The notes under the pieces were generated by a model. It was not told the DNA's origin and ran no database searches. It saw nothing but the letters and a program-made list of their open reading frames with translations. DNA of 28,639 bases from Candidatus Omnitrophota bacterium (lineage in GTDB: Bacteria; Omnitrophota; Koll11; JAHIPI01). The position numbers and the translations under genes were made by a program. The stretch lies in NCBI GenBank assembly GCA_028718265.1, contig JAQUMG010000003.1, forward strand, positions 1 through 28,639, in the 5' to 3' direction. Numbering within the stretch: position 1 is the first letter of the stretch; the number at the start of each line of letters is the position of its first letter. Below, one piece after another: positions 7,246 to 28,639 of the stretch.

Positions 7246-8382
7246 TTAACAGCCATGAAAGAGTTCGAAGTAGGCTCTTTCCGTTTCTTTGACATTTCTT
7301 TCTATACTGAAATTCTGCTCGACCCAATTTCTTGCAGCAACACCCATTTCCTGCCTCTTGCCGGCATCTTTTAATAACTCAATAATCGCCGCTGACAAGG
7401 CATGCGGTTTTGAAGGAGCGATCAATACTCCGGCTTTGCCATCGGGAACGAGTTCCGGCGTTCCGCCGCTATTCGTAGCCACTACAGGCCTGCCGGAAGC
7501 CATGGCCTCAAGCAAAACCCTGCCGCACGCCTCCGCTCTGGAGGTAAGAACAAATATGTCCAACGCGTTAAAAAGTTCCGGCATATCCTCTCTAAAGCCG
7601 CAAAAAATCACCGAATCTTTCAATCCAAGCTTATTGGCCACCTTTCTCAGATACTGCTCTCTATATGCGTCCTCTTTAAATACGGCACCGCCTATTACCA
7701 GAAATTTTATATCTCTGCCTTTAAATATTTTTTTAAGTGTGCGCGCTTCCTCAAAGAAATACTCATGCCCTTTATTTTTCGAAAACCGGCTCGCAATACC
7801 GATAACCGCGGTATCGCCTCGCAGGCCAAATTCTTCTTTTACTCTGCGCGAGTCTATGCCTGAATTAAACTTTCCCAAATCTACTCCGTTATAAATAATC
7901 CGGGCCTTAGGTATCAATCTGTTGTTTTTTTCAAACCTGCGCGCCACGGCCTTTGAATTACATATAATCCTGTCCGGCAGAAAGGAAAACAGCCTGTCTA
8001 AATCCAGCATCTCCTTTTCTACCAGACTACGCGCATGCCAGATAACCGGTATCTTTTGCAGCTTTGCGACAATCGCCCCGTACATATTGGTTCTTATGCT
8101 CTGTGAGTGAATTAAGTTTATATCCTTTTCCCTGCTTATGCCTATTAAGCGCCTTATCGCTTTGTCTGCGCCTATAAGAAACCGGAAACGCGGCATCTTT
8201 ACAAACTGTACATCTATGCCGAGCTTGCGCAGTTTATCGGCGAATATACCGTTTTCGGGTAAAACAAAAAATACTTTAAACTTATCTTTGTCCATATGTT
8301 CCACAAGATTCAACAGGCTATTTTCGGCCCCGCCAAGACCGGACATCTCATGGATATAAAGGATATTAAGAGGCGTGTTCAT
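7246..8382 (-). CDS. GT4 glycosyltransferase (GT-B fold)
   Basis: A 378-residue retaining glycosyltransferase. The N-terminal domain has LGGAEN at 16-21 and the C-terminal domain has SRAEACGRVLLEAMASG, the E-x7-E nucleotide-sugar motif (about residues 284-292), followed by PVVATNSGGTPELV. The start ATG at 8382 has AAAGG upstream and overlaps the end of the broken GT4 gene by 17 bases. It acts at the cytoplasmic membrane face on a lipid-linked glycan. Possibly a paralogue of the disrupted GT4 just upstream. Sugar specificity unknown. Confidence 0.9.
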   Translation of the reverse strand: MNTPLNILYIHEMSGLGGAENSLLNLVEHMDKDKFKVFFVLPENGIFADKLRKLGIDVQFVKMPRFRFLIGADKAIRRLIGISREKDINLIHSQSIRTNMYGAIVAKLQKIPVIWHARSLVEKEMLDLDRLFSFLPDRIICNSKAVARRFEKNNRLIPKARIIYNGVDLGKFNSGIDSRRVKEEFGLRGDTAVIGIASRFSKNKGHEYFFEEARTLKKIFKGRDIKFLVIGGAVFKEDAYREQYLRKVANKLGLKDSVIFCGFREDMPELFNALDIFVLTSRAEACGRVLLEAMASGRPVVATNSGGTPELVPDGKAGVLIAPSKPHALSAAIIELLKDAGKRQEMGVAARNWVEQNFSIERNVKETERAYFELFHGC

Positions 8383-8761
8383 AAAGCCTTTCTATCTTAT
8401 TTACCATCTTTTCCAATGTAAAACGCTGCTCCCATATTTTCCGCGATTCCTCACCCATCTTTTTTCTCTCGTCCGTACTTTCAGTTAAAAATTTTATTTT
8501 TTCCATTATTATTTCCGAATTCGCGGGCGGAACAACAAAGCCGTTTAATCCGTCCTGGACAAGTTCGGCGCTGCCTCCTATGTCCGTAGCGATCAAAGGA
8601 AGACCGCTTGAAGCAGCCTCTGTCAGCACAACAGGCAGCCCCTCGAGTAAAGTAGACGGCTGGACAAAAACATCCATAGCCGGAAGCAAGTTTTCGATGT
8701 CCCTTCTTAATCCCGTGAAAATTACCATATCTTCAAGATTTAAATCTCTGACTCTGGCCTT
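8366..8761 (-). pseudogene. C-terminal remnant of a GT4 gene, downstream of an in-frame stop
   Basis: This stretch continues the reading frame of the gene at 8762-9469 directly after its TAA codon. It encodes the rest of the GT4 C-terminal domain: VIFTGLRRDIENLLPAMDVFV, the E-x7-E region LLEGLPVVLTEAASSG, then IATDIGGSAELVQDG. The first internal ATG is at 8728, with only a weak GAAG close to it, so independent translation is doubtful, and the piece lacks the VGDGP nucleotide-binding loop. I infer a broken or sequencing-damaged gene rather than a separate protein. Together with the N-terminal part it would be a normal 367-residue GT4. Confidence 0.75.
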
Positions 8762-9469
8762 TTAATTCCCCGCTACCGGGCCGTCGCCTACAATCAGACA
8801 TTTTAAGCCGGATACGCAGAGGCGCAGTTTATTCATTGCTTCTATCAGATATTTATGGCCTTTATGTTCTACGAGGCGGCCTATGTTCCCTACGACAAAA
8901 TTATCTTCTCCGATGCCTAATTGCCTGCGCATTTCCCGCCTTTCCGGCGGGGTTTGCGTTTCCATGCTTCTTGCGCTGCTGTAAATCACCACTATCTTGT
9001 CCGCATCTATACCGATAGATTCTATAATAGATTTTTTGACCGCTTCCGACACGGCTATGATCTTTGTCGTAAAAAAACTAAAAAATCTAAGCTTTATCTT
9101 GTCCTTTATCGAAACATCATAATAAAGATTGCCGCAATGGTTTATTCTTACGGGAATCTTCGCTAAAATCCCGCACGCCACGGCCCAGATCATGGGAAAC
9201 ATGCCGTAGGAGTGCATGACTTTGAAATTTTCTTTGCGTAATTCTTTCGCAAGCCCGAGAAGGTGCCATATCCCGATACCGCCCTCAAAGCCGAAACTCC
9301 TCACTAAAATTCCTTCTATTTCAATCTCCTCGGCCAGAATGCCCTTTCGTTTCAGACACCACACCTCTGAAAGATATTTTTCTTTATCAAGGGCCAGGAT
9401 AAGATTTTTCAATATATTTTCCAACCCGCCCATGTTTAATTCATCAACAAGATGGCAAATCTTTATCAT
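8762..9469 (-). CDS. GT4 glycosyltransferase, N-terminal part ended by a premature TAA
   Basis: A 235-residue product that holds the whole GT4 N-terminal Rossmann domain (HLVDELNMGGLEN near residues 6-18) and the start of the second (VVGNIGRLVEHKGHKYLIEA, CLIVGDGP). It ends at TAA 8764-8762, five codons after GDGP. Family members run on here with a Leu-containing helix, and the same frame does continue for another 132 codons, so only one base need have changed (for example TTA to TAA). As it stands it lacks the E-x7-E half of the active site and should be inactive. The ATG at 9469 follows the preceding gene by 29 bases, with AAAGGG further upstream than usual. Confidence 0.78.
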   Translation of the reverse strand: MIKICHLVDELNMGGLENILKNLILALDKEKYLSEVWCLKRKGILAEEIEIEGILVRSFGFEGGIGIWHLLGLAKELRKENFKVMHSYGMFPMIWAVACGILAKIPVRINHCGNLYYDVSIKDKIKLRFFSFFTTKIIAVSEAVKKSIIESIGIDADKIVVIYSSARSMETQTPPERREMRRQLGIGEDNFVVGNIGRLVEHKGHKYLIEAMNKLRLCVSGLKCLIVGDGPVAGN

Positions 9470-23673: not shown

Positions 23674-24765
23674 CTAATTGCTTGCTGCTACGTGCTTATA
23701 CCACGCTCTGATTTCTTTTCTCCAGTCAAAGATGGACATAGCAGTATCTACTGACGGCTGTATATCGTTCAGGAACTTATTGAAATTGGCGATAAATGTC
23801 TTTGGCACATATACCACATCATTGGGCATAAGGATAACATCGGGTTTGGAGGTCCCTTTATGAATAGCGCGAAAGAGATTGACTCTCACGACCTCCGGCG
23901 TTTCGGTTAAATTGTTGTGCACCACTATTATGCTGTCGGTACGGGCATCGTCGGTAAAATCGCCCGCCAGAGCTACGGCCTCAAGCAGATTAAGGTCACC
24001 CTGGTACGTATATATTCCCGGCGCGGCCACCTGGCCCAGGATTATTATCTTATTGCCGGTAAAGGTTCTCATCATTATGGATACCTGCGCCAATTTGATA
24101 TATTTGGATAGTTCTTCACTAAGCCTGGTTTCAAGCTGCGCCGGCGTCAATCCTGCCGCTTTAACCCTTCCGACCAGCGGATAGGATATGTTACCGTCCG
24201 GGCCCACGGTGACATCTTTGGGCGGATTCATTTCGCCCAATATGTTGCCCTTTTTGGTTAATTCCTCTTTTTTCTTTTCGCCGCCGAATGTTCTTATCAT
24301 AACTGATATCTGAGGGGATTTAATATACCTGGACATCTCTTCGGTCATTTTATCTTCGAGTTGTTTTATCGTCAGGCCGGCGACTTCGAACCGGCCGATT
24401 AGAGGATATGATATTCTGCCGTCGGGATCTACGATAACGACTTTACTGACGTCAGGGTTCTGCCAGACGAAAACCTCTACTCCGTCACCCGGGACTATCT
24501 TATATTCTTTTCCGGCTTCTTCCGCTTCGGGCGCCGCTTTTTCAGCAGGCAGCAGTTCGACGGGTTTTTCCCATACAAAAATCTCCATCGTATCCCCGGG
24601 CGCTATATAATATTCTACCAAAGGAGTTCTGCTCTGCAATGTACCGGTGACGCCCGACTCCTGCGTCCTGAGGTACTGTACACTTGCCGCCAAAGCAAAA
24701 GAAGAACTCAGTGATAGCAGAAAACCTAAAAATAATATATATTTTAATTTTCGTATTATCTGCAT
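23674..24765 (-). CDS. Wza-like polysaccharide export protein with internal duplication
   Basis: A 363-residue exported protein. Residues 1-27 form a signal peptide ending SFALA; there is no lipobox cysteine, unlike E. coli Wza. Two copies of the first export-domain strand, YYIAPGDTMEIFVWEKP (52-68) and YKIVPGDGVEVFVWQNP (88-104), and two copies of the following unit (112-164 and 187-239, with ISYPL[IV]GR and ISVMIRTF/VSIMMRTF) show a partial tandem duplication. An SLBB-like region (NKIIILGQVAAPGIY onward) and a C-terminal tail follow. It probably forms the outer-membrane channel or periplasmic ring. First gene after the promoter; AAAGG about ten bases before ATG 24765. Confidence 0.9.
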   Translation of the reverse strand: MQIIRKLKYILFLGFLLSLSSSFALAASVQYLRTQESGVTGTLQSRTPLVEYYIAPGDTMEIFVWEKPVELLPAEKAAPEAEEAGKEYKIVPGDGVEVFVWQNPDVSKVVIVDPDGRISYPLIGRFEVAGLTIKQLEDKMTEEMSRYIKSPQISVMIRTFGGEKKKEELTKKGNILGEMNPPKDVTVGPDGNISYPLVGRVKAAGLTPAQLETRLSEELSKYIKLAQVSIMMRTFTGNKIIILGQVAAPGIYTYQGDLNLLEAVALAGDFTDDARTDSIIVVHNNLTETPEVVRVNLFRAIHKGTSKPDVILMPNDVVYVPKTFIANFNKFLNDIQPSVDTAMSIFDWRKEIRAWYKHVAASN

Positions 24766-27695: not shown

Positions 27696-28380
27696 TTGTT
27701 TCTGCCTCCAGGGTACGCCAGAAATTACGGTTTTTTGAGAATTCCATTTCGTAGGCAGGTATTTTTCTTGTAAAATCCGCAGCTGTTAAAAATATGTTGC
27801 CGGCGAGCGGCTTTCCCGTATAAGTAAGAAAGTGTATATGAGCGGACAATATCCGCATCAATGCATCCTCAGGCGGCAATAATTTGAATGATATCCGGTT
27901 GGATTTTTTGATAAAAAATACGGCGGAAATCTTACCCTTCGTATTTTTATCCGGCCTTATAAACGGCGCCTGCGCCCACGGCGTAGAAAAAGCATAATAA
28001 TGGGCGCCGCTTCTTCTGGCGGCTATGATATCGTCGCCGAGCACCCTGTGCTTCCGCGAGAGGCCGGCTATTGTGGACTTACCGGCTCCGGCTTTACCGA
28101 AAAAGATGAACACTTCACCGTCTTTGACTACCGCCGCCGCGTGCAGCAGCATCCCCTTATTTAACGCCAGAAGCTGAGAATAGGCATACGATATGAGTTT
28201 ACCGTCTGAAATGGGAAAATGGGGATAATGTTTATTAGCGGGAAAATGGGAACAACGTTTATTTCTTTTTTTACTTTTACATATGAATTCTTCGTATATT
28301 GGCTGCTGAAGAATATCGTACCGGTTTTTTACATCCAGTGGTAATCCCGCTATATTAATTACGAGATTTTCTCTTTTCAT
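27676..28380 (-). CDS. HPr-kinase-like P-loop protein
   Basis: A 234-residue protein with the HprK C-terminal kinase fold: LLHAAAVVKDGEVFIFFG leading to the P-loop GKAGAGKST (95-103), then VLGDDIIA (113-120) with Asp116-Asp117, and FSTPW near 131. The N-terminal regulatory domain of true HPr kinase is absent. Relatives phosphorylate Ser in lasso-peptide precursors or have unknown targets. It starts 12 bases after the Cys-repeat peptide stop. Only a weak AGAAG lies before ATG 28380. A short duplicated stretch (KRCSHFP and KHYPHFP, 41-47 and 50-56) is unusual. The neighbouring Ser/Thr-rich peptide is its likely substrate, by position. Confidence 0.83.
   Translation of the reverse strand: MKRENLVINIAGLPLDVKNRYDILQQPIYEEFICKSKKRNKRCSHFPANKHYPHFPISDGKLISYAYSQLLALNKGMLLHAAAVVKDGEVFIFFGKAGAGKSTIAGLSRKHRVLGDDIIAARRSGAHYYAFSTPWAQAPFIRPDKNTKGKISAVFFIKKSNRISFKLLPPEDALMRILSAHIHFLTYTGKPLAGNIFLTAADFTRKIPAYEMEFSKNRNFWRTLEAETNAVRPQ
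28213..28261 (-). repeat. Short tandem repeat inside the HPr-kinase-like gene
   Basis: Two 22-base copies (28213-28234 and 28240-28261), 27 bases apart, match at 19 of 22 positions. They encode KHYPHFP and KRCSHFP. The offset is nine codons, so the frame is kept. It lies before the P-loop and is probably a small local duplication. Confidence 0.65.
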
Positions 28381-28392
28381 CTATACAAGCTT

Positions 28393-28639
28393 CTAAGCGA
28401 CGGCGCTTGAGCCCATACTACAGCTCGCCGCGGAACTGCCGGTGCCGCACGTGGGCCCTAAGGGCGTAGTACCTCTAAGGCAGTCTCCTAAAACCGCCGT
28501 TCCTACATCACAACCGCTTTGAGCATCACTCCCGCTAATGCAATTATCGCCGGCACTGGTTCCCGTACTACAGTTGAGGATTTCGGGCTGGCTTCCGACA
28601 CCGCACTTGGAAGGTCCGCCCTGCGGTTCAATCCCGAGA
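28393..28639 (-). CDS. Cysteine-repeat peptide, probable RiPP-like precursor (5' end cut by window)
   Basis: The frame is open from the right edge to TAG at 28395-28393, giving the last 81 residues of a peptide whose start is outside the window. Seven Cys occur at visible positions 12, 23, 33, 43, 53, 64 and 73, each beginning C-x-x-G followed by Ser or Thr (CGVGS, CSTGT, CISGS, CDVGT, CLRGT, CGTGS, CSMGS). There are no aromatic residues and very few charged ones. It ends SSAVA. Twelve bases later a HPr-kinase-like gene starts. I recognise no family. A modified, exported peptide is my inference; a secreted structural repeat protein (for example a beta-solenoid) is the alternative. Confidence 0.7.
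   Translation of the reverse strand, partial: LGIEPQGGPSKCGVGSQPEILNCSTGTSAGDNCISGSDAQSGCDVGTAVLGDCLRGTTPLGPTCGTGSSAASCSMGSSAVA
28396..28605 (-). repeat. Seven C-x-x-G-[S/T] units of 9-11 residues
   Basis: From the Cys codon at 28605-28603 to the stop, seven in-frame units start with Cys, Gly three residues later and Ser/Thr next. Unit lengths are 11, 10, 10, 10, 11, 9 and 9 residues. DNA identity between units is low while the four key positions are kept 7/7, suggesting protein-level selection rather than recent duplication. Confidence 0.8.

Follow-up and report, generated by a model that had tools for sequence, protein, structure and literature searches.

The open reading frame (ORF) at the right edge of the window, the 28,639-nt stretch of DNA analysed here, codes, on strong evidence, for the core half of an Omnitrophota RiPP precursor. 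It is a long representative of a kind of bacterial peptide that has been catalogued but little studied, and the system is a variant in which a SynChlorMet-like pair of radical SAM enzymes is combined with tailoring like that of linear polyphosphorylated peptides (LPP) and with a long repeat core.

Results

Repeat units of the precursor

The ORF is open at the right window edge and contains 81 residues with seven Cys, all of which (7/7) are followed by Gly at +3 and Ser/Thr at +4. Successive Cys are spaced 9 (once), 10 (three times) or 11 residues (twice) apart, and F, W and Y are absent downstream of the first Cys. In 20,000 shuffles of the 81 residues, at most four C-x2-G-[ST] motifs arose, compared with the seven observed. 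Tandem Repeats Finder reported no DNA array at 28380-28639, and the units are therefore alike in protein, not in DNA. The stop of the ORF is separated by 12 bases from the ATG of the HprK-like gene at 28380. As a whole, the observation made in an earlier note on this DNA, of seven C-x2-G-[ST] units in an ORF that runs off the window beside a kinase gene, is confirmed. Its 9-11 residue spacing, lack of aromatics (counted here after the first Cys), divergent DNA between units, and gene order of precursor, 12 bases, HprK-like kinase, ABC exporter and nucleotidyltransferase (NTP_transf_5) were likewise borne out (Table 1).

Table 1. Genes of the cluster and its border within the window.
Feature	Position	Strand	Remarks
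C-x2-G-repeat precursor, C-terminal 81 residues	28393..28638	(-)	7 units in view; 5' end beyond window
HprK-like kinase, ScmC-like, 234 aa	27676..28380	(-)	ScmC 39.6 bits, cut-off 125
ABC exporter, 595 aa	25908..27695	(-)	membrane and ATPase domains; peptidase domain not listed
NTP_transf_5 protein, 356 aa	24844..25914	(-)	PF14907, E 6.8e-50
Wza-like polysaccharide export gene	23674..24765	(-)	named by eye; first of neighbouring exopolysaccharide genes

Across 41 precursors (25 database proteins, the window ORF and 15 from loci), Gly is at +3 for 297 of 304 Cys, leaving seven without it, and for 187/187 Cys in the 22 window-type precursors. The 41 rows are not independent, because two near-identical pairs were kept (P0044 and the L012 copy; P0046 and the L002 copy). 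The copies of database proteins in L001, L005, L064 and L026 were not double-counted, the orphan precursor in L091 is outside the set, and P0003 was counted without its 13 N-terminal residues because its annotated start is probably wrong, a cut that took away one Cys lacking Gly. Shuffling the non-Cys residues (500 trials) gave a mean of 54 and a maximum of 75 C-x2-G motifs, against 290 counted in the same run. Units are spaced 9-11 residues apart in 218 of 256 cases, 10 being the commonest.

Ser/Thr follows C-x2-G in 149/297 units, compared with 640/2446 other core positions. With Ser/Thr in roughly one unit of two, the rule for the family is C-x2-G, not C-x2-G-[ST], and Ser/Thr is a preference only. 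The Ser/Thr conservation described in the earlier note is complete in the window ORF but extends to only 142/290 C-x2-G units in the 40 other precursors. On the same counts, we dropped its suggestion that the kinase acts on each Ser/Thr after Gly; the LppK kinase of LPP phosphorylates a single Ser, according to the available text of that paper (PMC13381572).

Full-length relatives and leader

A protein search with the window ORF returned five relatives of 122-141 aa (E 2.8e-34 to 5e-15), and a profile search returned 22 proteins at E <=0.01, all except the last at 1.1e-12 or better; among the profile matches, 14 new window-type proteins have 117-124 aa and the others 73-109 aa. Overall, window-type relatives are 117-141 aa long, with 8-9 units and a KKKYEPPSI-type leader (for example, MTKENKPLGKKKYEPPSITG), the consensus of which is K-K-x-Y-x-x-P-x-[IV]. 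A G-x-T ahead of the first Cys is kept in 11/11 rows of the window-branch alignment and is absent from the sister branches. One organism name, Candidatus Tantalella remota (Omnitrophota), appears among the matched proteins. Searches of window-type precursors against Pfam, NCBIfam and PHROGs gave nothing useful, and viral contigs searched with the kinase and precursor profiles yielded candidates and no confirmed relative. The earlier note had named a large structural protein with many more repeats as an outcome that would refute its idea; none was found among the relatives, in a search that admitted 0.55-1.75 times the query length.

Gene cluster in the window and its relatives

With a kinase profile, the species-genome collection yielded five loci, each under an Omnitrophota title. 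The repeat precursor is present in 5/5, directly before the kinase except in L003 and L004, where it lies between two radical SAM genes, ~3 kb before the kinase. In L001, whose kinase is 62% identical to that of the window, the order is as in the window: precursor, kinase, ABC exporter, NTP_transf_5, Wza-like, Wzc-like, ExeA-like (by eye), HD-GYP-like and O-antigen-type genes. Ahead of the L001 precursor are signal peptidase I, radical SAM A, a PqqD-like RRE, and radical SAM B with a fused RRE. Judged from synteny only, the window contig would continue as L001 does beyond its edge, radical SAM genes included.

Because signal peptidase, radical SAM and RRE genes precede the precursor in relatives, the window gene probably does not open the operon, contrary to the earlier note. 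Its RiPP-like assignment is well supported by the YxxP leader, the PqqD-like RREs and the two radical SAM/SPASM enzymes of the relatives, and its interpretation as a whole is partly supported. For the lanthionine-type chemistry that it also mentioned, no lanthionine synthetase gene stood out among the annotated neighbours.

Exopolysaccharide genes adjoin the cluster in the window, L001, L003, L004 and L067; none were found beside the L005 cluster by the same search. The Wza-like gene, in the same order in L001, is probably context and not a maturation gene. Elsewhere in the window, two adjacent ORFs at 8366-9469 resemble halves of one glycosyltransferase, perhaps split by a frameshift or an assembly error.

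Several loci depart from the common arrangement. L084 (G077) has three C-x2-G precursors and two each of the HprK-like, ABC exporter and signal-peptidase-like genes, and L003 carries a third radical-SAM-like gene within the cluster (L003:8151-9287), without the usual SPASM match. A single 663-aa ORF at L088:5771-7762 is, by eye, an apparent fusion of a signal-peptidase-like N-terminus with NTP_transf_5.

Probable maturation enzymes and the Scm models

Both radical SAM enzymes keep the CxxxCxxC motif and SPASM-type Cys (17/17 radical SAM A, 15/15 radical SAM B). In L001, radical SAM A is ScmF-like (E 1.1e-100) and radical SAM B ScmE-like (E 1.1e-48); among sequences with solved structures, SkfB comes closest to radical SAM B (E 1.6e-18) and is called a sactisynthase in the title of its paper (PMC6231123). 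A tree built from 17 radical SAM A proteins, none of them from the window, separates the window-type loci as a group (support 97/96) from the G288 group (100/100).

His80, Lys101, Asp116 and Asp117 of the kinase are invariant in a 25-row alignment and, going by the motif, would be the four residues described for lasso-peptide kinases in the available text of PMC9266682. The kinase profile matched nothing at 0.01 among PDB sequences, and we therefore predicted the fold and compared it with known structures. The model (pLDDT 79.1, pTM 0.79) matches PEPCK (E 2.7e-6) and HPr kinase (E 3.2e-5), with query TM-scores of ~0.4. Kinase relatives are labelled PF27840 in the protein collection; a Pfam scan of the same protein did not return PF27840. 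Among the signal peptidases, the SMxP motif is present in 13/14 and the second (His) motif in 8/14.

The NCBIfam models of SynChlorMet comprise TIGR04248 (ScmD), TIGR04249 (ScmC), TIGR04250 (ScmE), TIGR04251 (ScmF) and TIGR04252 (the precursor ScmA). Scm models are the best NCBIfam match for radical SAM A, radical SAM B, the kinase and one of the two RREs, and in most loci both radical SAM enzymes fall under the curated cut-offs. For ScmF (cut-off 400 bits), L001 (337.5, full length), L063 (313.7) and L066 (345.6) are all below; radical SAM B of L001 reaches 165.9 against ScmE (400 bits), the window kinase falls short of ScmC (125 bits; Table 1), and the RREs of L003 (46.3) and L001 (28.0) are below ScmD (100 bits). 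The cluster of G288 (L088), in a sister branch, passes all four cut-offs, with 559.9, 595.2, 289.1 and 124.7 bits for ScmF, ScmE, ScmC and ScmD, respectively.

The same cluster has two precursors with three C-x2-G units each, one of which spans the ScmA model end to end at 24.8 bits. Among 16 sister-branch precursors, 13 are listed for ScmA, 10 at E <=0.1 and three at E <=1e-3; the best score is 30.4 bits, none exceeds the 35-bit cut-off, and the matching precursors carry 3-7 units. ScmA matched neither the window precursor nor seven relatives of its branch at E up to 10, nor eight shuffles of two sister-branch precursors, nor six other Omnitrophota small precursors. At E up to 10 it also matches, below cut-off, in 8/14 control genomes, and single weak matches therefore count for little; at 1e-3 it matched neither in G001, G003 and G360 nor in any control. 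The earlier note's statement that it knew of no described precursor of this pattern stands for the branch of the window, which has no match, and does not stand for the sister clusters, whose precursors match ScmA below cut-off.

Distribution in Omnitrophota

Of 384 Omnitrophota genomes searched for radical SAM A at E <=1e-60, 15 match, none with an E-value above 7.8e-102. Thirteen of these 15 also have a repeat precursor, 12 in the same cluster and G328 on another contig, near its end. Of the remaining two genomes, G321 has its radical SAM A cluster cut at a contig edge, and G191 has radical SAM A, RRE, kinase and NTP_transf_5, with no repeat precursor found; a search elsewhere in both genomes gave no convincing precursor. 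Precursors are multiple in G077 (three, with two kinases), G079 (two) and G288 (two, with an orphan elsewhere). The orphan, at L091:1447-1641, is ScmA-like with three C-x2-G units, and no maturation gene was seen in the 3.1 kb around it.

Fourteen clusters lie on one contig, from 12 radical SAM A genomes together with G002 and G004, which were reached by the kinase profile. Counted by phmmer at E <=1e-4 with queries from the window and these loci, radical SAM B and the HprK-like kinase are present in 14/14, the PqqD-like protein in 13/14, signal peptidase I in 12/14, and the ABC exporter and NTP_transf_5 in 10/14 each, some absences falling at contig edges; the signal peptidase fused to NTP_transf_5 in L088 (by eye) is beyond the 12/14. 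Homologues thus do occur beside kinase, nucleotidyltransferase and ABC genes, the neighbourhood whose absence the earlier note had said would count against its idea.

In the 384 genomes, the kinase profile matches 95 at 1e-15, and HprK-like genes, being so common, are no marker by themselves; only G001, G003, G005 and G328 are below 1e-80. In 25 other HprK-like loci with flanks of ~1.5 kb, none of 397 ORFs of 40-170 aa has at least three C-x2-G motifs; one of these control loci, L021, belongs to G321, which has radical SAM A on another contig. With the precursor profile, 22 of the 384 genomes match at E <=0.01, and eight have real repeat precursors (G001, G003, G005, G328, G347, G242, G159 and G360). 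In the 14 others (15 loci, L047-L061) small repeat ORFs are lacking, and the one frame with four C-x2-G, of 290 aa, is incidental. The profile missed the precursors of G077, G079, G102, G204 and G288, which were found only around radical SAM A, and the census of precursors without radical SAM A is therefore not exhaustive.

Other small ORFs lie near HprK-like genes. Those in L016, L017, L019, L027, L033 and L034 have a YxxPxL-type leader, a shared CC motif and a different core, the one in L019 being cut at the locus end. NCBIfam gave no match for those of L016, L017, L027 and L033, and they are possibly another kind of Omnitrophota RiPP. Further small ORFs, in L025, L029 and L035 (the last cut at the locus end), have a Y.KP leader and share a 'KKIEV-like' stretch before Cys.

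Discussion

Proposed pathway and alternatives

The Gly kept at +3 of each Cys points to an alpha-thioether, since Gly has only an alpha carbon. An alpha-thioether would be formed as in the Cys31-Gly34 ring of streptosactin (PMC8172795, available text). In the relatives, a radical SAM/SPASM maturase lies beside a Cys-rich precursor, as for sactipeptides, and the sulfur-to-alpha-carbon thioether of sactipeptides would fit both the motif and the enzyme class. We favour, with moderate confidence, a radical-SAM RiPP precursor whose C-x2-G units would become four-residue Cys-Gly thioether rings in a peptide that is tailored and exported; from the sequences we infer the ring chemistry and ring position, as well as the tailoring, the cut site and the role of the product.

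In the proposed pathway, the leader K-K-x-Y-x-x-P-x-[IV] would be held by the PqqD-type RREs while the ScmF-like and ScmE-like radical SAM/SPASM enzymes, perhaps together, would link the sulfur of each Cys with the Gly alpha carbon at +3, so that separate four-residue thioether (sactionine) rings would follow one another along the chain. One or a few Ser/Thr would then receive phosphate from the HprK-like kinase and perhaps a sugar or nucleotide from the NTP_transf_5 protein. For pseudomycoidin, the available text of PMC9266682 describes an HprK-like kinase that adds phosphate and a nucleotidyltransferase-like protein that adds hexose. The signal-peptidase-like enzyme would cut the leader near the branch-conserved G-x-T; LPP are phosphorylated and cleaved by a signal peptidase, and cleavage after a Thr is known there (PMC13381572, available text). 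The ABC exporter would secrete the product, which may act outside the cell together with the exopolysaccharide specified by the adjacent genes.

Radical SAM/SPASM enzymes catalyse many reactions, and the same RiPP cassette could install another modification: beta-carbon thioethers as in ranthipeptides, C-C links, or oxidation of Cys/Gly, in which case Gly would provide no more than a turn. One precedent is PapB, which installs six Cys-x3-Asp beta-carbon thioethers on a single peptide (PMC9413430, available text), and the PapB model also matches radical SAM B, below its cut-off. However, no residue other than Gly at +3 is conserved along with Cys, no Asp/Glu occupies a fixed place, and the best PDB match of radical SAM B is SkfB, which leaves another modification a possible but clearly less probable outcome than Cys-Gly rings. 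An improbable reading is a linear, LPP-like phosphorylated peptide made by the kinase, NTP transferase and signal peptidase, with the radical SAM enzymes acting elsewhere. The C-x2-G core tracks radical SAM, with 13/15 radical SAM A genomes against 0/25 kinase loci without the cluster (short flanks), and a word search of the available text of the LPP paper gave no radical SAM, even though the tailoring genes are the LPP core set and LPP clusters also lie in polysaccharide loci (PMC13381572).

The regular spacing (9-11 residues in 218/256) and the adjacent exopolysaccharide genes would also suit an unmodified Cys-rich structural repeat protein, secreted or cytosolic and held as a solenoid by disulfides. 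We consider such a protein very improbable: the relatives are short, begin with the leader motif, have no signal peptide by eye and are linked to radical SAM and RRE genes, and AlphaFold finds no fold for precursor P0001 (pLDDT 38.7, pTM 0.13, in a prediction that rests on 24 rows).

Extending the preferred reading of Cys-Gly rings, we suggest tentatively, and as a rather unlikely whole, a polysactipeptide with about nine consecutive, unnested four-residue Cys-Gly alpha-thioether rings installed on one chain by the radical SAM pair. After phosphorylation and glycosylation it would leave the cell as a stiff rod, either to become part of the Omnitrophota exopolysaccharide or to regulate it; the whole SynChlorMet kind would then share this chemistry, with at least three rings. 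The ring model is a precise prediction, testable by co-expression and mass spectrometry. The catalogued SynChlorMet precursor kind gains a clear core motif, the C-x2-G repeats, and becomes linked to the phosphorylated LPP pathway, and the pathway type is extended to Omnitrophota, a phylum known mostly from metagenomes.

Comparison with known systems

Literature searches found no paper on SynChlorMet by name, none on CxxG with radical SAM and precursor peptide, and nothing on a C-x2-G repeat; most subscription journals were outside their scope, and prior work may exist. In its available text, PMC9902471 mentions the expression of Omnitrophota gene clusters, without this peptide.

Among the systems below, all compared through the available text of the cited papers, streptosactin resembles the proposed product in its unnested alpha-thioether rings from Cys to i+3, one of them Cys-Gly, but is a 14-residue product with two rings and one radical SAM enzyme, and no kinase is mentioned (PMC8172795). 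The ranthipeptide Freyrasin/PapA shares many repeated Cys-x_n-acceptor units and a radical SAM/SPASM enzyme, whereas its acceptor is Asp/Glu at i+4, bonded at the beta or gamma carbon (PMC9413430). Thuricin CD requires two radical SAM enzymes jointly for its thioethers, the enzymes acting as one complex in which only one radical SAM activity is strictly needed; it differs in having two precursors, and kinase and NTP transferase are not mentioned (PMC12093266). Lasso peptides of the paeninodin/pseudomycoidin type share an HprK-like kinase with His-Lys-Asp-Asp and a nucleotidyltransferase-like protein, PsmN, that adds hexose, but their product is a lasso macrolactam (PMC9266682); no gene for an asparagine synthetase-like lasso macrolactam synthetase stood out among the annotated neighbours here.

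LPP (Popov et al. 2026, PMC13381572, again in its available text) are alike in their SpI-type peptidase, discrete RRE, HprK-like kinase, NTP transferase, MsbA-like exporter, YxxP leader and location in polysaccharide loci. LPP maturation involves the YxxPx[LVI] leader motif, HprK kinase, NTP transferase, SpI and exporter, or counts them among its core genes, although deletion of the NTP transferase had no effect. All five LPP core genes were found by phmmer in L001, L002, L003, L004, L062, L063, L065 and L084, and the window shows three of them (kinase, exporter and NTP_transf_5). LPP differ in that they are described as Bacillota-only, whereas the present cluster is from Omnitrophota (5/5 kinase-profile loci); their leader is YxxPxVLxHQxIxFETxxS, of which the Omnitrophota relatives have YxxPx[IV] and not the rest; and two radical SAM enzymes and a C-x2-G core are found here, radical SAM being absent from the text of that paper by word search.

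SynChlorMet differs in that window-type proteins are below every Scm cut-off, that their 8-9-unit, longer-leader precursors have no ScmA match, and that the Scm models compared include none for signal peptidase, exporter or NTP_transf_5. The likeness to SynChlorMet lies in the set of two radical SAM/SPASM enzymes, a PqqD-like protein, an HprK-like protein and a small precursor.
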